Made by a program: the position numbers and the translations under genes
Shown here: positions 37,356-46,345 of the stretch, piece after piece
How the letters are laid out: each line of letters starts with the position of its first letter
Position numbering within the stretch: position 1 is the stretch's first letter
Source: Halobellus litoreus
GTDB taxonomy: Archaea > Halobacteriota > Halobacteria > Halobacteriales > Haloferacaceae
NCBI RefSeq assembly: GCF_024464595.1
Contig: NZ_JANHAW010000003.1
Span: 186,001 to 250,000, forward strand
Length of the DNA: 64,000 bases
Direction: 5' to 3'
The notes under the pieces: model-generated
Told to the model about the DNA's origin: nothing
Database searches by the model: none
What the model saw: the letters and a program-made list of their open reading frames with translations, nothing else

Positions 37356-38072
37356 TCAGTCCCCGTTAGCGGGTGTCACGTCTGCGAGCCGTACGTCCAG
37401 GTTCGGTTCGACGCCGACGCGATGGCACAGGTCCCAGACTGTGGCCGCGTTGCTCGACACGACCGGGACGCCGAAATCGCGTTCCAGCGACGCCAGGGCG
37501 GGCATAGACCGATAGTTCGTACACGAGACGAACAACGCGTCGGCGTCCGGTGCGTCCGCGAGCACCGACCGACCCTGACGCTCTGCTTCGTCTGGGGTCA
37601 ATGCCCCGATGGCGACGTTCTCGACGAGTCCGCGGCCGTCGAGCGCCACCACCTCGAACCCGTTGTCGGCCAGATACTCGCGTTCCAGTTCGTCCAGATC
37701 CGCCGCGTACGGCGTCGCGACGGCGACCCGCTCGACGTCGAGCGCGTGCAGCGCCCGGACGACCGAGAGCGCGGTCGCGACCGCCGGCGCGCCGGCGGCT
37801 TCGGAGAGCCGAGATTCCAGCCGCGAATCGAACCCCGACCCGTGCAGGAGGCTCCCGGTGGTACAGGCGTACGCGACGCCGTGGACCGAGGCGTGCGACA
37901 GCAGCGCTGCCGCCCGTTCGGCGCCGTCGGCCATCGCGTCGAGTTCGTCGGCCGTCACGTCCTCCAGCGGCATCCGCGCCGCGTGGATCGTGGCATCCGG
38001 GGGCAGCGCGCCGCGGAACTCCGGTTCGGCCGTCGTGTTCGAGGAGGGAACGACCAAGCCCAGTCGCGTCAC
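37356..38072 (-). CDS. Asp/Glu racemase superfamily protein (maleate isomerase / hydantoin racemase type)
   Basis: This 238-residue protein begins with the family signature LGLVVPSSNTTAEPEF and has two catalytic Cys segments (AYACTTGSLLHGSGF and FVSCTNYRSMPALASLE) plus VATPYAADLDELEREYL. Two cysteines favour a racemase or cis-trans isomerase over a decarboxylase. It is the last gene of the Nramp-HyuA-HyuB operon, overlapping hyuB by four bases. In that context hydantoin racemisation or acting on a related acid is likely; sequence alone cannot choose. Confidence 0.85.
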   Translation of the reverse strand: MTRLGLVVPSSNTTAEPEFRGALPPDATIHAARMPLEDVTADELDAMADGAERAAALLSHASVHGVAYACTTGSLLHGSGFDSRLESRLSEAAGAPAVATALSVVRALHALDVERVAVATPYAADLDELEREYLADNGFEVVALDGRGLVENVAIGALTPDEAERQGRSVLADAPDADALFVSCTNYRSMPALASLERDFGVPVVSSNAATVWDLCHRVGVEPNLDVRLADVTPANGD

Positions 38073-39751
38073 TGGCCGTCCACCTTCCCGTCGCGGCGGT
38101 CGCCTTCTCTCGCGGCCGGGTCCCGATCGTCCGGGTCGCCGTGCCCGCCGCCGCCGGGCGTCCGGATGGAGACGGTCGTCCCCGCCTCCACGTCGATGGA
38201 GGCCTTCGCGGGCACCGCCTCGCCGTCGACGAGGTTCTCGCCGGTCGCACCGTCCTCGCCACCGTTCACGCCGGCGGGGGCCGTCCGCCGACGCTCGGTC
38301 AGAAGCGACACGGTCGCGTCGGTCTCGACGGTCACGGTCCGTTCGAGCCCCAGTCCGCCCCGATAGCGGCCGTCGCCGCCGCTGGACGGTCGGAGCGCGT
38401 ACCGCTCCACGCGGAGCGGGTACTCGGTCTCCATCGCCTCGACGGGCGTGTTGAGGGTGTTGGTCATCCCGACCTGCACGCCGTCCATCCCGTCCCGCTC
38501 GGGGCGGGCACCGAACCCGCCGCCAATCGTCTCGTAGTAGGTGAACTCCCCGGTTCGGTCCCCGATGATGAGGTTGTTCATCGTCCCTTGCCCGCCGGCG
38601 GGGACCTCTTCCGGGACCGCCTCGGCCAACGCCGCCAGCGTGACGTCCGTGACCCGCTGGCTCGTCTCGACGTTGCCGCCGACGACCGCCGCCGGCGGTT
38701 CGGGGTTGAGAACCGACCCCGCCGGCGCCGACACCGAAACGGGCTCGTAACAGCCGTGGTTCGGCGGGATCTCCGGGTCGGTGATCGCGCGGACGACGAA
38801 GTAGACCGCGCTCTTGGCCACCGAGAGCGGCGCGTTCAGGTTCCCCGCTACCTGGTCGGCCGTCCCTGCGAAATCGACCTCGATCGACCTGCCGTCGACG
38901 GTGACGGCCGCGTTCACTGGGATGTCTTCGTCGGTGACGCCGTCGCCTTCGAGCACGTCCCGCGCTCGGTACGTCCCGTCGGGGATATCGGCGAGTTCGG
39001 CCTCGACGCGCTCGCGCGAGTAGTCGATGACGGCGTCGAACGCGTCGAGCAGCGTCTCGCCGTGTTCGTCCAGTAACTCTCCGATGCGCTGCTCTGCCCG
39101 GTCGTTGGCGGCGCGCTGCGCCCGGAGGTCCGCCTCGCGCTCGTCCGGCGTCCGGACGTTGGCGCGGATCAGCTCGTAGACCGACTCGTTCGGCTCGCCG
39201 CCGTCGACGAGCTTGACCGCCGGCAGGCGGAGCCCCTCCTCGTACACTTCCTGGGCCCCCGGCGGCATACTCCCGGGCGAACTGCCGCCGACGTCCGCGT
39301 GGTGCGCCCGCGTCACCGCGAAGCCGATCACCTCGTCGTCGGGCGCCACCGTCGAGACCAGCGTGATGTCGGGCAGGTGCGTCCCCCCGGCGAAGGGGTC
39401 GTTGACGATGAAGACGTCGCCCGGCTTCGGATCCTTTTCGAGGACGATGTCGACCGCGTCGGGCATCGCGCCGAGATGGACCGGGATGTGCTCGGCCTGG
39501 GCGATCATCCGTCCCGACGCGTCGAAGAGCGCGGTCGAGCAGTCCTGCCGCTCCTTGATGTTCGGGGAGTAGGCGCCGCGGATGAGCACGTGGCCCATCT
39601 CCGTGGCGACGCTCTCCAGTTGGTTCCGGAGGATTTCGAGCGTCACGGGGTCGATCTCCGTGTTCGTGCCGGACGCCTCGCTGCCGGAGTCCGATCCTTC
39701 TCCGTCGTCCGGCTCGACGGGCCCGCCCGTGGTCTCGCGTTCGTCGCTCAT
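38069..39751 (-). CDS. hyuB: Hydantoinase B / 5-oxoprolinase beta-type subunit
   Basis: This 560-residue protein has the HyuB N-terminus (EIDPVTLEILRNQLESVATE, MGHVLIRGAYSPNIKERQDC), VNDPFAGGTHLPDITLV, and the glycine-rich C-terminal TPGGGGHGDP. With HyuA it forms an ATP-dependent amidohydrolase or carboxylase for hydantoins, 5-oxoproline or acetophenone. The N-terminal 25 or so residues are acidic and probably disordered. It overlaps hyuA by four bases and the racemase gene by four. Confidence 0.92.
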   Translation of the reverse strand: MSDERETTGGPVEPDDGEGSDSGSEASGTNTEIDPVTLEILRNQLESVATEMGHVLIRGAYSPNIKERQDCSTALFDASGRMIAQAEHIPVHLGAMPDAVDIVLEKDPKPGDVFIVNDPFAGGTHLPDITLVSTVAPDDEVIGFAVTRAHHADVGGSSPGSMPPGAQEVYEEGLRLPAVKLVDGGEPNESVYELIRANVRTPDEREADLRAQRAANDRAEQRIGELLDEHGETLLDAFDAVIDYSRERVEAELADIPDGTYRARDVLEGDGVTDEDIPVNAAVTVDGRSIEVDFAGTADQVAGNLNAPLSVAKSAVYFVVRAITDPEIPPNHGCYEPVSVSAPAGSVLNPEPPAAVVGGNVETSQRVTDVTLAALAEAVPEEVPAGGQGTMNNLIIGDRTGEFTYYETIGGGFGARPERDGMDGVQVGMTNTLNTPVEAMETEYPLRVERYALRPSSGGDGRYRGGLGLERTVTVETDATVSLLTERRRTAPAGVNGGEDGATGENLVDGEAVPAKASIDVEAGTTVSIRTPGGGGHGDPDDRDPAAREGDRRDGKVDGQ

Positions 39752-41766
39752 TCTCTCACCTCCGCGATCAGTGCCCCGTCGTCGCGCACTCGTACGTCCC
39801 AGTTCGGGGGGACGACGACCGTGCTCTCGTCGCCCTCGACGACCGCCGGCCCCTCGAACGTCCCGCCGGGTGCCAACCGCTCGCGTGCGTACACCGGCGT
39901 CTCGTGGAGCCCGTCGGCGAACGCCGCCTCGCGGGTCCCCGTCTGCGGATCCTCGCCGCCGACGTACTCGATCGACGGGGCGTTCCGGGGGACCGTGGTC
40001 GTCACGCGGCAGTTGACCAGTTCGACCGGTTCGTCCGCTCGGTAGCCGTACGCCGACTCGTGCGCAGCCGCGAACCGTTCGCCCGCCTCCTCGGCGTCGA
40101 ACGGCCGGTCGACGTCCACGGTGAGCTCGAAGCTCTGTCCGGCGTATCTGAGGTCTGCGGAGTATCTCACGTCTGCCCGCTCCCGGTCGCTGACCTCCAG
40201 CAGTAGCTCCTCAGCCAGTTCGTCGTACAGCGCGTCGACTTCGTCGGGATCGACCGACGCGAGCGAGCGCTGGTACGTCCGCACCGCGTCGCGCTTCTCG
40301 TCGGCCGCGAGCAGCCCGTAGGCCGAAAGGACGCCGGAGGCCCGCGGGATCACTACCCGGTCGATGTCGAGGCCGTCGGCGATCGAGACCGCGTGCATCG
40401 GTCCCGCGCCGCCGAACGCGACGAGGCCGAACTTCCGCGGATCGTACCCCCGCTCGACGGTCACAGAGCGGATCGCTCTGGTCATGTTCGCGTTCGCGAC
40501 GCGGTAGACGCCGCGGGCGGCCTCCTGGGGACCGTCCATCCCCGCCTCGTCGGCGAGGTCGGCGAGGACGTCGTAGGCGGCTTCGACGTCGAGCGACATC
40601 TCGCCACCGAGGCTGGTGCTCTCCCCGATGTAGCCGAGCACGAGGTTCGCGTCCGTCACCGTCGGCTCCGTGCCGCCTTTTCCGTAGCAGGCCGGACCGG
40701 GTTCGGCCCCGGCCGAGCGCGGTCCGATCCGGAGCGCGCCGCCGGCGTCGACCCAGGCGATCGACCCGCCGCCCGCGCCCACGGTCTCGATGTCGACCAT
40801 CGGCGTCTTGATCGGCCGGTCGTTGATGACGCCCTCGGTCGTCCGCGCGGCCTCGCCGTCCCGGACGAGGCTCACGTCGCTCGAAGTCCCGCCCATGTCG
40901 AAGGTGACGAGCCCCGAGTGTTCGTCGCCGTCGCCGGCCGAGCGGTCGCCGTCGGCCGCCATCGCGCTCGCGCCCACGACGCCCGCAGCGGGCCCCGAGA
41001 GGACGGTCGAGACGGCGTTCCGTCTGACCGTGTCGGCGTCGGTGATCCCGCCGTTGGCCTGCATAATCCGGGGCTGGGGAACGCCACGCTCCCGCGCGCG
41101 GTCGGTGAGGTGGCTCACGTATCGGTCGATCGCCGGGCGGACGTACGCGTCGACGGCGGTCGTCGACGTCCGCTCGTACTCCCGGAACTCCGCGAGGACC
41201 TCGTGGGAGGCCGACACGGGCACGTCGAGTTCCTCCCGCAACACCGACGCCACGCGCTCCTCGTTCTCCGGATGCGCGTAGGCGTGCAGCAGCGAGACCG
41301 CGACGGCCTCGACGTCGGCGTCGCGGATCGACGCCGCTATGGCGCTGACCTCGTCGTCGTCGACGGGGCGTTCGATGCCCTCCGTCGTCGCGCGTTCCGC
41401 GACCTCGAACCGGCGGCGCCGCGGGATAAGCGGCGACGGTTTCTCGGCGTCGAGGTCGTACAGCGACGGCCGGTCCTGGCGACCGATCTCCAGGACGTCG
41501 CGGAAGCCGTCGGTCGTGACGAGGGCGGTCTTCGCGCCGTCCTCCTCGAGGAGCGCGTTGACGGAGACCGTCATCGCGTGTGAGAACTCGCTCAGGGTCT
41601 CGGGGTCGATTCCGGCCTCCTCGCAGGCCTTCTCGATGCCGGCCATCACGCCCTCGCTCTGGTCTTCGGTGCTCGGGACCTTCGCGGTCACGAGGTCCCC
41701 GTCGAGCGCCAGGGTCACGTCGGTGAACGTGCCGCCGACGTCGACGCCGATCCGCCTACCGGCCAT
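39748..41766 (-). CDS. hyuA: Hydantoinase A / 5-oxoprolinase alpha-type subunit
   Basis: This 672-residue protein shows the ASKHA-type start RRIGVDVGGTFTDVTLAL, the DMGGTSSDVSLVRDGEAAR segment of the ATPase fold, and MVDIETVGAGGGSIAWVD with RSAGAEPGPACYGKGG, all HyuA hallmarks. It provides the ATP-dependent activation half of the HyuAB complex. The ATG directly abuts the Nramp stop. The exact substrate within hydantoin, 5-oxoproline or related compounds is unresolved. Confidence 0.93.
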   Translation of the reverse strand: MAGRRIGVDVGGTFTDVTLALDGDLVTAKVPSTEDQSEGVMAGIEKACEEAGIDPETLSEFSHAMTVSVNALLEEDGAKTALVTTDGFRDVLEIGRQDRPSLYDLDAEKPSPLIPRRRRFEVAERATTEGIERPVDDDEVSAIAASIRDADVEAVAVSLLHAYAHPENEERVASVLREELDVPVSASHEVLAEFREYERTSTTAVDAYVRPAIDRYVSHLTDRARERGVPQPRIMQANGGITDADTVRRNAVSTVLSGPAAGVVGASAMAADGDRSAGDGDEHSGLVTFDMGGTSSDVSLVRDGEAARTTEGVINDRPIKTPMVDIETVGAGGGSIAWVDAGGALRIGPRSAGAEPGPACYGKGGTEPTVTDANLVLGYIGESTSLGGEMSLDVEAAYDVLADLADEAGMDGPQEAARGVYRVANANMTRAIRSVTVERGYDPRKFGLVAFGGAGPMHAVSIADGLDIDRVVIPRASGVLSAYGLLAADEKRDAVRTYQRSLASVDPDEVDALYDELAEELLLEVSDRERADVRYSADLRYAGQSFELTVDVDRPFDAEEAGERFAAAHESAYGYRADEPVELVNCRVTTTVPRNAPSIEYVGGEDPQTGTREAAFADGLHETPVYARERLAPGGTFEGPAVVEGDESTVVVPPNWDVRVRDDGALIAEVRE

Positions 41767-42975
41767 CTACAACACCCCGGCCACGTCGAGGAGCGTCCGG
41801 ACGCCGAGCCACACGACGATGATCGTCACGACCGCGCCGAGCGCGTTCGCGACCGGACCGTTCGTGTACTCGCCGAGCAGGTCGTCTTGGTTCATCGCGT
41901 AGATCAGGAATATCGCGACGATCGGAAGTAAGATTCCGTTGACGACCTGGGCGAACACGATGATCTCGACGGGACTGCCGCCGAGGAGGACCGAGAGGAC
42001 GCCGACCCCGACGATCGTGCCCCAGATCGCCCGGAATCGCGTGCTCTTCATGTCCGAGTCCCAGCCGAGCGCGCCGGTGGTCGCCCAGGCGCCGGCCAGC
42101 GGCGCCGTCGTCGCGCTGGTGAACCCGGCCGCGAACAGCCCGATGCTGAAGAACAGTTCCGCGTAGGGACCCGCAAGTGGCCTGAGCTGCTCGGCCATCC
42201 GGCCGACGTCGCTGATCTGCGTCCCCGGCTCGAATGCCGCGGCCGCGGTGATCATGATCGTTATCGTGATCACGCCGCCGACGAGGATCGAGAGGATCGT
42301 GTCGGTCCGCGAGTGCCCGATGTCGTCGGGGCCGCTCCACCGCTCCTGGACGTTGCTCGCGTGCAGGAACAGGTTGTAGCCGACGATCGTCGTCCCGATG
42401 AGGCCCGTGATGAGATACAGCGATCCGGAGGGGACGCCCGGGACGAAGCCCGTCGCGATCGCGCCGAAGTCGGGGCCGATGAGGACCGCCGACGCCACGA
42501 ACGAGAGCGCCATCACGACGACGAGGCCGACGAGCGCCCGCTCGATGAGTTTGTACCGACCGGTGTACAGCAGGGCCGCGGCCACGAGCCCCATCAGGAT
42601 CCCCCACACCGTCGAATCGATGCCCGTGATCGTCGCGAGGCCCGCCGCGCCGCCGAGGATGTTCCCGGCCTCGTAGGCGGCGGTCCCGATCCCGATCGCG
42701 CCCACGACGAGGAAGATGCTCACGTACTCCACGGCCTGGCTGTCGAACCGCTCGCGGAGGGCCTCGCCGAGTCCCTCCCCGGAGACCAGTCCGAGTCGCG
42801 CGCTCATCTCCTGCAGGACGATCGTCGCGATGATCGAGAACGCGATCGTCCAGAGGAGCGCGTAGCCGAACTGTGCGCCCGTTACGCTCGCAGTCGTGAC
42901 CGTCCCGGGGCCGATGAACGCCGCTGCGACCATCGCACCCGGACCGATGGATTTGAGTCGTTGAATGAGATTCAT
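41767..42975 (-). CDS. Nramp-superfamily permease lacking the canonical metal-site motifs
   Basis: This 402-residue protein has about eleven membrane segments. The Nramp fold is clear from the first helix (IGPGAMVAAAFIGPGTVTTA, GAQFGYALLW) and from FLHASNVQERW. However, the canonical Asp-Pro-Gly-Asn metal-binding motif in helix 1 reads Gly-Pro-Gly-Thr, and the helix 6 Met-Pro-His-Asn reads Val-Gly-Tyr-Asn. True manganese/iron transport is therefore doubtful. Being first in the Nramp-hyuA-hyuB-racemase operon suggests it imports the organic substrate of that pathway. That is inference; sequence alone supports only Nramp-superfamily membership. Confidence 0.85.
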   Translation of the reverse strand: MNLIQRLKSIGPGAMVAAAFIGPGTVTTASVTGAQFGYALLWTIAFSIIATIVLQEMSARLGLVSGEGLGEALRERFDSQAVEYVSIFLVVGAIGIGTAAYEAGNILGGAAGLATITGIDSTVWGILMGLVAAALLYTGRYKLIERALVGLVVVMALSFVASAVLIGPDFGAIATGFVPGVPSGSLYLITGLIGTTIVGYNLFLHASNVQERWSGPDDIGHSRTDTILSILVGGVITITIMITAAAAFEPGTQISDVGRMAEQLRPLAGPYAELFFSIGLFAAGFTSATTAPLAGAWATTGALGWDSDMKSTRFRAIWGTIVGVGVLSVLLGGSPVEIIVFAQVVNGILLPIVAIFLIYAMNQDDLLGEYTNGPVANALGAVVTIIVVWLGVRTLLDVAGVL

Positions 42976-43133: not shown

Positions 43134-43679
43134 TCACTTCTCACGCGCCGTGAACAGGACCTTCGAGACGCTCTCTTCGATCTCGACCTCGAACGGGAGG
43201 TCGGCGACGCTCCCGCGGATGAACCGGACCATGAACCACCGCAACTCCTCGGAGGGAAAGACGACGTGGTAGCTCCCTTCCTCCGCGCGACGGACTGTCA
43301 GAAACCCGCACAGCGAGAGCCACTCGAGGACGTCGCCGAGCGAGTCGAACCGCTCTGCGTACTCGGCGGCGTGGTACTGCGCCACCTGATCGATCGTCTC
43401 CAGGAACTCGTCGCTGCGCGTCGCGGGATCCGCTACCTGACTCAGGAACGCGTGCAACAGATCCACGTCCAAGAGCACGTGTTCCCCCGTCGAGAGCATC
43501 TCGTAGTAGGTCTGTAGATGGTCGCTGTCGCTCGCCTTCGCGGAGTCGAAGTTCGCCGCGTAGAACCCGATGGCCTCTCGAATCAGTTCGCTGCGGCTCC
43601 CGTCGGTCCGTTCGGTCAATCCTTCGAGCGCGCTCTTGGCGTCCTCGTCGAGCGACACCGTGACCCGGTCACCTGGCAT
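43134..43679 (-). CDS. Ribbon-helix-helix regulator with C-terminal sensor-like domain
   Basis: This 181-residue protein has an N-terminal CopG/RHH segment (RVTVSLDEDAKSALEGLTER, GSRSELIREAIGFYAA). A longer C-terminal domain includes EHVLLDVDLLHAFLSQVAD, LEWLSLCGFLTVRRAEEGSY and ELRWFMVRFIRG. It lies 34 bases downstream of the P1B ATPase on the same strand and probably regulates that gene or a nearby promoter. The C-terminal fold is unknown to me; it may bind a metal or small ligand. Confidence 0.78.
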   Translation of the reverse strand: MPGDRVTVSLDEDAKSALEGLTERTDGSRSELIREAIGFYAANFDSAKASDSDHLQTYYEMLSTGEHVLLDVDLLHAFLSQVADPATRSDEFLETIDQVAQYHAAEYAERFDSLGDVLEWLSLCGFLTVRRAEEGSYHVVFPSEELRWFMVRFIRGSVADLPFEVEIEESVSKVLFTAREK

Positions 43680-43713: not shown

Positions 43714-46308
43714 CTACGCGTCGTCGGGGCGCAATCGGGAGAGCCGCATCGCGTTCCCCGTCACGCCGACCGTCATCCCCGCGTCGCCGGCGAGGACGGC
43801 CAACCAGATGGGGACGTACCCGAACGGGACGCCGAGGGCGAGCAGCGCCTTGATCCCCAGGCTCGCCCAGATGTTCTGTCTGATCACGCCGTTGGCGTCG
43901 TTGGCGAGTTCGTAGAGGTACGGGAGCTTCGAGAGGTCGTCGGCCAGCAGCGCCACGTCGGCCGTTTCGAGCGCGGTATCCGTCCCCGCCGCGCCCATCG
44001 CGATCCCGACCGTCGCCGTGGCCAGCGCCGGGGCGTCGTTGATCCCGTCGCCGACCATCGCGACCCCGCCTGTGTCACCGTCTCCGCCGGCCTCCCCGGT
44101 GAGTTCGCGGATCGCGGCGACCTTCTCGTCGGGGAGCAACTCCGCGCGGTACTCGTCGACGCCGACCGTCTCGGCGATCGCGCGGGCGGTCCGCTCGTTG
44201 TCGCCGGTCAGCATCACGGTTCGGCCGACGCCCAGTTCCTTCAACCGCTCGACCGTCCGCCTGGCCTCGGGCCTGACCTCGTCGGCGACGGCGACGACCC
44301 CCTCCAGTTCGTCCGCGGTTCCGACGAGCACCACCGTCTTCCCCTCGGCCTGGAGCTCCGGGACCGTCTCTTCGAGGAGGTCGAGACAGTCGTTGCGCTC
44401 GCAGATGTCCCGGGCCGTCCGCGTCACGACGCCGCCGTCGGTCGTCGCGTGGACGTGCGAGAGATCGAACCCGAGTTCCTCGAACAGCGCCGGCTTGCCG
44501 GCCACGTGCGGCGTCCCGTCGAGCGTCGCGCGGACGCCTTTCCCGGTGAGGCTCTCGAACTCCTCGATCGACCCGGCCTCCTCGGAATCGACGCCGACTT
44601 CGCCCGCCGCCGCGACGATGGCCTCACCGATCGGGTGCTCGCTCCGCTGTTCGAGGCCGCGAGCGCAGCGGAGGACGTCCTCCTCGGTGTTGCCGTTGAG
44701 CGCGATCACGTCGGTCACGGCGAGTTCGCCGCTGGTGAGCGTCCCGGTCTTGTCGAAGGCGACGACGTCGACCGCGCCCATCGCCTCCAGGTGGCTCCCG
44801 CCCTTGATCAGCACCCCGTTCTTCGCGGCGCTCGTGATCCCCGAGACGACCGAGACGGGCGTCGAGATGACGAACGCGCACGGACACGCCAGCACCAGAA
44901 GCGTCAGTCCGTAGACGATGGCCGTGGGCCACGCGACGCCGAAGACGAACGGCGTCCCGAGCGTGACAAGCACCGCGAACGCGACGACGACGGGCGTGTA
45001 GTAGGCCGAGAACCGCTCGACGAACTGCTCGCGCTCGGTCTTCTTCGACTGAGCGTCCTCCACCATCTCGACGATCCGCGAGAGCGTGTTGTCCTCGGCG
45101 CCGCCCGTGACGCGGACTTCGAGGTATCCGCCCTCGTTGATCGTTCCCGCGTAGACCTCGTCGCCGACGGTCTTGTCGACGGGGACGCTCTCGCCGGTGA
45201 TCGGGGCCTGGTTCACCGCGCTCTCGCCGTCGACGACCTCGCCGTCCATCGGCAGTTTCTCCCCCGGTCGGACCACGACGATCTCGCCCGGTTCCACCGC
45301 TTTCACGGGGACCGTCTCCTCGCCGCCGCCCCGCTTCACCGTCGCCTCGTTCGGCGAGAGGTCCATCAGTTCCCTGAGGGAGTCGCGGGCGCGGTCCATC
45401 GAGTACCGCTCCAGCAACTCGGCGACGCTGAAGAGGAACGCGAGCGTCGCCGCCTCGAAGTACAGCGCCTCGCCGAACGCGAGGCTCGCCGACAGCGCGC
45501 CGAGGATCGCCACCGACATCAGGAAGTCGATGTCGAGGTTCAGGTTTCGTGCCGAGTAGTACCCGTTTCGGAGTATCGCCTGCCCGCCGGTCGCGACGGC
45601 CAAGAGGAAGAGGAGGTCGGCTAGCAACAGTTCGTTCCCGACGAGGCTCCCGATCCGGACGTTCGCGCCGACGAGGAGGAACTCGAACCCCAGCCCCATC
45701 GCCACGAACACGCCGCTCGCCCACGTTTTGAGCGCTCGGCTGCTCGTCCAGATCGAATCGCGATCCGCACCGGAACCGTCCGCTTCGCCCTCCCCGCCCG
45801 TCGCCCCGGTGACCTCGTAGCCCGCGCGTTCGACGGCCGCGACGAGATCGGCCTCCGAGACGCGTTCCCCGTCGTAGGTGACGCTGACGCTCCCGGTCGT
45901 CGGTCTCGTCTGGTACGACGTCACCCCTTCGACGCGGTCGAGCGCGGTCTCGACTTTGCCCGCGCAGGACGCGCAGTCCATCTCGGGGACGTCGAACGTC
46001 ACGCGTGCCGTCGTCCCCTCCTCGACGGAGTATCCTGCTTTCTCGACGCGCTCAGCGATATCGCCTTCGCTCGCGACGTCCGCGTCGTACGTGACGCTCA
46101 GCCGCCCGCTCGCGACCTGTGGATCGATCTCCTCGACGCCGTCGAGCGAGGAGACGCTCGACTCGACTTTCCCCGCGCAGGACGGGCAGTCCATATCCGG
46201 CACGCCGAACGTCGCCGTCTCCGCTCGGTCCTGTCGGTTCGGCGGGTCACCGTCCACGCGATCCGACTCGGGACGCCGATCCGACTCGTTCCGACTCGGT
46301 TCTGCCAT
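43714..46308 (-). CDS. P1B-type heavy-metal ATPase, Zn/Cd class
   Basis: From the ATG at 46308 this is an 864-residue protein; an ATG at 46332 is embedded in a TATA-like element and is rejected. Two N-terminal HMA domains carry MDCPSCAGKVE and MDCASCAGKVE. Then come a CPC membrane motif (LACPCAFVIST), AFDKTGTLTSGE, SEHPIGEAIV, and a hinge GINDAPALA. The Lys in LGIKALLALGVP and Asp in VLAGDAGMT match the Zn/Cd/Pb-selective group (ZntA/CadA), not the copper group. It exports the metal from the cytoplasm. An acidic linker between the HMAs and membrane part is typical of haloarchaea. Confidence 0.9.
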   Translation of the reverse strand: MAEPSRNESDRRPESDRVDGDPPNRQDRAETATFGVPDMDCPSCAGKVESSVSSLDGVEEIDPQVASGRLSVTYDADVASEGDIAERVEKAGYSVEEGTTARVTFDVPEMDCASCAGKVETALDRVEGVTSYQTRPTTGSVSVTYDGERVSEADLVAAVERAGYEVTGATGGEGEADGSGADRDSIWTSSRALKTWASGVFVAMGLGFEFLLVGANVRIGSLVGNELLLADLLFLLAVATGGQAILRNGYYSARNLNLDIDFLMSVAILGALSASLAFGEALYFEAATLAFLFSVAELLERYSMDRARDSLRELMDLSPNEATVKRGGGEETVPVKAVEPGEIVVVRPGEKLPMDGEVVDGESAVNQAPITGESVPVDKTVGDEVYAGTINEGGYLEVRVTGGAEDNTLSRIVEMVEDAQSKKTEREQFVERFSAYYTPVVVAFAVLVTLGTPFVFGVAWPTAIVYGLTLLVLACPCAFVISTPVSVVSGITSAAKNGVLIKGGSHLEAMGAVDVVAFDKTGTLTSGELAVTDVIALNGNTEEDVLRCARGLEQRSEHPIGEAIVAAAGEVGVDSEEAGSIEEFESLTGKGVRATLDGTPHVAGKPALFEELGFDLSHVHATTDGGVVTRTARDICERNDCLDLLEETVPELQAEGKTVVLVGTADELEGVVAVADEVRPEARRTVERLKELGVGRTVMLTGDNERTARAIAETVGVDEYRAELLPDEKVAAIRELTGEAGGDGDTGGVAMVGDGINDAPALATATVGIAMGAAGTDTALETADVALLADDLSKLPYLYELANDANGVIRQNIWASLGIKALLALGVPFGYVPIWLAVLAGDAGMTVGVTGNAMRLSRLRPDDA

Positions 46309-46330
46309 TACTCGCCCGTAGCCGGTCGCC

Positions 46331-46345
46331 ATTTATTAACTTCAC
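46331..46345 (-). promoter_or_regulatory. TATA box of the P1B ATPase gene
   Basis: On the minus strand GTTAATAAATG lies about 28-30 bases before the ATG at 46308, giving leaderless spacing. The overlapping ATG at 46332 is part of this element, supporting the shorter protein. Confidence 0.55.

Follow-up and report, generated by a model that had tools for sequence, protein, structure and literature searches.

The window (the whole stretch of 64,000 nucleotides of Halobellus litoreus DNA that was analysed) encodes a permease of the Nramp superfamily whose metal-site residues are replaced, and which very probably carries some organic substrate. Gene order and co-occurrence link the clade of this permease to two unrelated kinds of 5-oxoprolinase-type enzyme, and the protein itself probably takes up 5-oxoproline for HyuAB, which would act as an ATP-dependent 5-oxoprolinase. 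A large family automatically named 'divalent metal transporter' probably carries no metals. If this reading is true, a function can be given to the group published as closest to the Nramp metal transporters, an independent lineage becomes available for testing the disputed question of whether PxpT/YcsG carries 5-oxoproline or Mn, and haloarchaea acquire a likely way of using 5-oxoproline.

The permease gene and its product

The gene and the codons of its motif residues are located as follows.

41767..42975, minus strand: Nramp-fold permease without metal-site residues, 402 amino acids (PF01566, 347.7 bits; AlphaFold2 model)
42901..42912, minus strand: codons of the helix-1 motif G22-P-G-T25 (D-P-G-N in canonical Nramp; invariant in 54 haloarchaeal members)
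42661..42675, minus strand: codons of helix-3 residues Y101 to N105, the 'orphan outgroup' signature (alignment and column counts; PMC10606218)
42373..42384, minus strand: codons of the helix-6 motif V198-G-Y-N201 (M-P-H-N in canonical Nramp)

The open reading frame runs on the minus strand, which the earlier note had left unmentioned, from 42975 to 41767. A frame artefact was discarded, as the plus-strand frame of the same interval contains an in-frame stop and translation of the minus strand yields a complete protein that is conserved. The product is the sole Nramp of the H. litoreus genome and matches the Pfam Nramp family over nearly its whole length, its score lying far above the cut-off of 29.8 bits. 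It also passes the NCBIfam equivalog NF037982, 'Nramp family divalent metal transporter' (108.6 bits, cut-off 50), so that the naming of the family as metal transporters is automatic.

The AlphaFold2 model (pLDDT 93.3) had DraNramp as its closest solved structure (Z 49.2, 2.5 A, 386 residues), with EleNRMT (Z about 46) and BfraNramp (Z 45.4) close behind; the first protein outside Nramp was the alanine symporter AgcS (Z 30.3), and YcsG appeared as an integrative model only. Such a fold match is uninformative on the substrate. The permease resembles canonical Nramp/MntH proteins (DraNramp and BfraNramp) in fold, length and 25-28% identity, but it differs from them in lacking DPGN, MPH and the canonical metal ligand set. 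With EleNRMT it shares the Nramp fold and the lack of a canonical motif, whereas EleNRMT has a helix 1 (NDAGG) and a helix 6 (APWM) of its own.

Residues at the metal-motif positions

Helix 1 of the permease presents G22-P-G-T25 opposite the D-P-G-N of DraNramp, Asp and Asn being replaced, which bears out what the earlier note had read from the sequence. In helix 6, V198-G-Y-N201 lies opposite the M-P-H-N of metal transporters; the note had described this core as missing, which held for Met, Pro and His but not for Asn, since N201 is kept, as is a later histidine (His205). Its general statement that the metal-binding residues are gone therefore applies to all key residues of the metal motifs except N201, the sole survivor.

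Residues G22, P23, G24, T25, T195, V198, Y200 and N201 were invariant across the 54 haloarchaeal sequences, and the same positions were invariant in 78 bacterial sequences with the exception of T25 (72 Thr, 6 Ser). Bacterial helix 1 was GPG(T/S) in 78/78 cases and helix 6 was VPYN in 77/78, with VTYN in the other one; position 101 was occupied by Tyr in 40 haloarchaeal sequences and by Phe in 14. Neither the permease nor its clade (54 haloarchaeal and 78 bacterial sequences) has the canonical DPGN of helix 1 or the MPH(N) of helix 6. The motif changes are fixed in the whole clade, and chance is excluded. Alignment with EleNRMT and NRMT-like sequences found the NRMT-type residues of helices 1 and 6 (N-D-A-G-G; APWM) absent from the permease as well.

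An orphan outgroup of Slc11/Nramp within PF01566 has been described by Cellier, with Tyr and Asn four residues apart in helix 3 and the changes A to T, M to V and H to Y in helix 6 (PMC10606218, PMC9606685). All these substitutions are present in the permease (Y101, N105, T195, V198, Y200), and neither has a canonical metal site. The outgroup differs in having no function assigned, and a link to 5-oxoprolinase or HyuAB is absent from the papers found. From the residues described in those papers, rather than from the author's sequences, we infer that the permease clade is this orphan outgroup. The earlier note had suggested that the permease may have been recruited to move an organic substrate, which would mean a loss of metal binding; as the clade matches the outgroup residue by residue, this direction is probably wrong, and the ability to bind metal may have arisen later (PMC10606218, PMC9606685). 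In a 2026 preprint Nramp-related proteins, which lack the motifs, are treated as paraphyletic (PMC12873925).

Gene neighborhood in the window

The genes accompanying the permease are listed below.

43134..43679, minus strand: ribbon-helix-helix (CopG-type) regulator (PF01402), present in most haloarchaeal loci
39748..41766, minus strand: hyuA-type subunit of an ATP-dependent lactamase/hydantoinase, 672 amino acids (PF01968 and PF05378)
38069..39751, minus strand: hyuB-type subunit, 560 amino acids (PF02538, 684 bits)
37356..38072, minus strand: enzyme of the Amdase/Asp-Glu-racemase superfamily, 238 amino acids, with two invariant cysteines (PF17645)

The operon with hyuA, hyuB and an Asp/Glu racemase-type gene proposed in the earlier note was found: the stop codon of the permease is followed by the hyuA start without a gap (TAG ATG), and hyuB and the racemase-type gene each overlap their predecessor by 4 bases. 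The regulator gene lies upstream of the permease on the same strand, across a 158-base gap. The C-terminal domain of its product (GEHVLLDvDfLH, LS.CGFL) is conserved, has no Pfam entry and contains invariant His and Cys; a metal or redox role is conceivable.

Among solved chains, the nearest to HyuA was the N-methylhydantoinase 7hk5, followed by entry 6yra. Alignments to 7hk5 and 6yra_B indicated that HyuB retains the metal-site positions of the caprolactamase CapB (site from PMC8453981); the pair in the window thus has HyuA and HyuB domains plus the HyuB metal site, as in ATP-dependent HyuAB lactamases/hydantoinases. Neither subunit reached the cut-off of any NCBIfam model for a named enzyme, and their sequences point to no single substrate. 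In the racemase-type enzyme both cysteines match those of maleate isomerase and were invariant in 26 relatives, as in the isomerases and racemases of its superfamily.

Distribution of the clade in Halobacteria

Permeases of the clade, with at least 53% identity, were found in 84/292 Halobacteria genomes, against about 34% for the Nramps that come next, and a lone oddity of H. litoreus is thereby ruled out. The hyuA gene was directly downstream of the permease in 63/66 haloarchaeal loci (some genomes being counted twice), the exceptions being L035, L038 and L056. Nine haloarchaeal Nramp paralogues (about 30% identity) had no hyuA, hyuB, racemase or ribbon-helix-helix gene as neighbor. A glutamate dehydrogenase gene appeared near the permease in just 2/35 haloarchaeal loci and was rejected as a regular neighbor.

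PxpA and the permease occurred together in 20 genomes among the 292 Halobacteria, more than expected by chance, and the haloarchaeal PxpA loci had no Nramp, hyu or ribbon-helix-helix gene nearby. Because of this coexistence HyuAB is no simple substitute for PxpABC, and a strict replacement of one by the other in haloarchaea was rejected. No PxpA was found in the genome of H. litoreus.

Bacterial relatives and 5-oxoprolinase genes

A scan of the collection gave more than 590 relatives of the permease, of which the best 80 were read; 78 of these were bacterial and about 45-50% identical to the permease of the window. Within this set, pxpA, pxpB or pxpC was located near the permease in 33/78 bacterial loci; in 31/78 the pxp genes were in a cluster on the same strand, usually arranged as permease-pxpA-pxpB-pxpC and only a few bases apart, whereas the partner in the window is HyuAB, a putative 5-oxoprolinase. 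No pxp genes adjoined the permease in over half of the bacterial members retrieved. In one locus (L132) NCBIfam names PxpA and PxpB, and the third gene belongs to the 5-oxoprolinase/urea-amidolyase-related family, PxpC remaining below its own cut-off. The operon of Natroniella (L167) also has a gene of the D-glutamate-cyclase family.

The second kind of partner was found in two Bacteroidetes MAGs (L113 and L115), where a fused HyuA-HyuB of 1252 amino acids is encoded about 20 bases downstream of the permease; since their permeases are 83% identical, both count as one lineage.

L113, 6422-10180: fused HyuA-HyuB
L115, 2229-5987: fused HyuA-HyuB

In architecture the fusion resembles the eukaryotic 5-oxoprolinases described in PMC8453981. 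A stretch HHA(D/E)(V/I)GG..PGSMPPGA is common to the HyuB of the window and the fused enzyme of L113, and the second HyuB of the H. litoreus genome is without it. The best Pfam N-terminal domain of the fused proteins starts only at residue 134, after unusual sequence.

In order to avoid the bias of reading the best 80, 197 evenly sampled genomes of the order holding Pseudoalteromonas were searched. PxpA was present in 17/18 genomes with the permease vs. 94/179 without it (Fisher p = 3e-4), and in 10/18 the permease adjoined the PxpA gene by coordinates. PxpA was likewise present in 23/24 genomes chosen mainly for having the permease outside a pxp operon.

Phylogeny and comparison with PxpT and YcsG

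A phylogeny of Nramp-related proteins, suggested in the earlier note as a check, was run and agrees with it. The haloarchaeal permeases formed a single clade (support 100/100), which grouped with the pxp-linked Bacillota Alkalihalobacillus (L138) and Natroniella (support 97/89). A constrained tree holding all pxp-linked rows apart from the haloarchaeal ones was not rejected (p-AU 0.42). On the topology obtained, the haloarchaeal clade likely descends from within the pxp-linked clade.

Literature searches on Nramp together with hydantoinase found no paper, and for Nramp with oxoproline or pyroglutamate only the reports on PxpT (PMC13274462) and YcsG (PMC10448178) concern the role of the family. 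PxpT of C. glutamicum is required for growth on 5-oxoproline, its authors leaving metal transport open (PMC13274462). For its homologue in B. subtilis, YcsG, import of Mn was reported from genetics and from cellular Mn, and an earlier 5-oxoproline result for YcsG was questioned for possible polarity (PMC10448178). The permease shares with PxpT/YcsG the family PF01566 and, if HyuAB is the 5-oxoprolinase that it is here presumed to be, an operon with such an enzyme, and the three members of pxp operons that were read (from Bacillus badius, Lactiplantibacillus and Klebsiella) are also without the metal motif (GPGF; GGY). These PxpT-type proteins differ in being only 23-28% identical to the permease of the window and in standing outside its clade on a separate long branch, whose exact place is unsure owing to the branch lengths; the permease clade pairs with PxpABC, HyuAB or the fused HyuA-HyuB.

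Proposed function and alternatives

The replacement of the metal residues and the two unrelated kinds of lactam-opening enzyme adjoining the clade make import of 5-oxoproline more likely than that of Mn or Fe. The substrate imported by the LeuT-fold permease would be a small organic lactam rather than a metal ion, 5-oxoproline (pyroglutamate) being the likeliest, with both the inward direction and a coupling ion being presumed; HyuA-HyuB would then open the 5-oxoproline ring at the expense of ATP, giving glutamate. The D-form may enter the pathway through the two-cysteine racemase-type enzyme, and control of the cluster may lie with the ribbon-helix-helix protein encoded upstream. An organic substrate such as 5-oxoproline or a hydantoin had already been suggested in the earlier note; an organic substrate, and 5-oxoproline in particular, is now well supported by the linkage to pxpABC and to fused HyuA-HyuB, by the co-occurrence with PxpA and by the precedent of PxpT. 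5-Oxoproline is accumulated as a compatible solute by some halophilic bacteria (PMC13274462). More tentatively, the whole orphan sister group of the metal Nramps might consist of widespread 5-oxoproline permeases, partnered by PxpABC in bacteria and by HyuAB in haloarchaea, so that metal transport may derive from a carrier of organic substrates; we consider this wider proposal somewhat less likely than not.

An organic-substrate permease could instead serve another lactam or cyclic amide opened by HyuAB, such as hydantoin, N-methylhydantoin or D-5-oxoproline, which we consider unlikely. Several cyclic amides are opened by HyuAB-type enzymes (PMC8453981), N-methylhydantoinase is the closest solved chain to both HyuA and HyuB, and the racemase-type gene, present in 25/35 long haloarchaeal loci, suggests a chiral substrate; moreover, PxpA and the cluster would be redundant in the 20 genomes having both if both served L-5-oxoproline. 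Against this, the bacterial relatives are linked with the 5-oxoprolinase PxpABC, and a gene for a HyuC-like N-carbamoylase was found in none of the long haloarchaeal loci carrying hyuAB, the one match being in L056, a locus without hyuAB. The genome also has a second hyuA/hyuB cluster (L186, contig C4 56500-69500) with genes for an M20 amidase, an amidohydrolase and an ABC permease, which by its gene content is probably a hydantoin-type pathway and would be a better candidate for hydantoin than the cluster in the window. Hydantoin, the other substrate named in the earlier note, is less likely for these last two reasons.

Import of a divalent metal (Mn, Zn or Mg) through a reorganised site, beside enzymes such as HyuB and PxpA that need a metal cofactor, appears improbable. 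YcsG was reported to raise cellular Mn, with MntR bound at the promoter of its operon, and HyuB-type enzymes do hold metal (PMC10448178 and PMC8453981, respectively). EleNRMT carries Mg without the canonical motif (PMC12873925, PMC8806188), but the permease is without the helix-1 pattern N-D-A-G-G of NRMTs, and Gly, Thr, Val and Tyr invariantly stand in place of its side-chain ligands. A gene for an HMA-type heavy-metal P-type ATPase (43714-46332) does end 34 bases before the regulator gene on the same strand, just upstream of the cluster; however, no such gene was beside the cluster in the annotated relatives viewed, and two ZnuA-type and several ZIP proteins of the genome are further candidates for metal import. 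A sensor or an exporter, for instance of glutamate or 5-oxoproline, is very improbable, for while the sequence gives no indication of which way transport runs, the precedent of PxpT is uptake (PMC13274462) and import fits an operon with a catabolic enzyme.

Other Nramp-related proteins

Helix-1 motifs GPGS, GPGA and GPGN were observed in other Nramp-related proteins (L070 4503-6466, L071 2699-3622 and L078 3810-6197), whose genes had as neighbors GFO/IDH/MocA oxidoreductases, regulators (LacI in L078) and genes of the dihydrodipicolinate-synthase family. These contexts suggest that PF01566 may contain further lineages with organic substrates.
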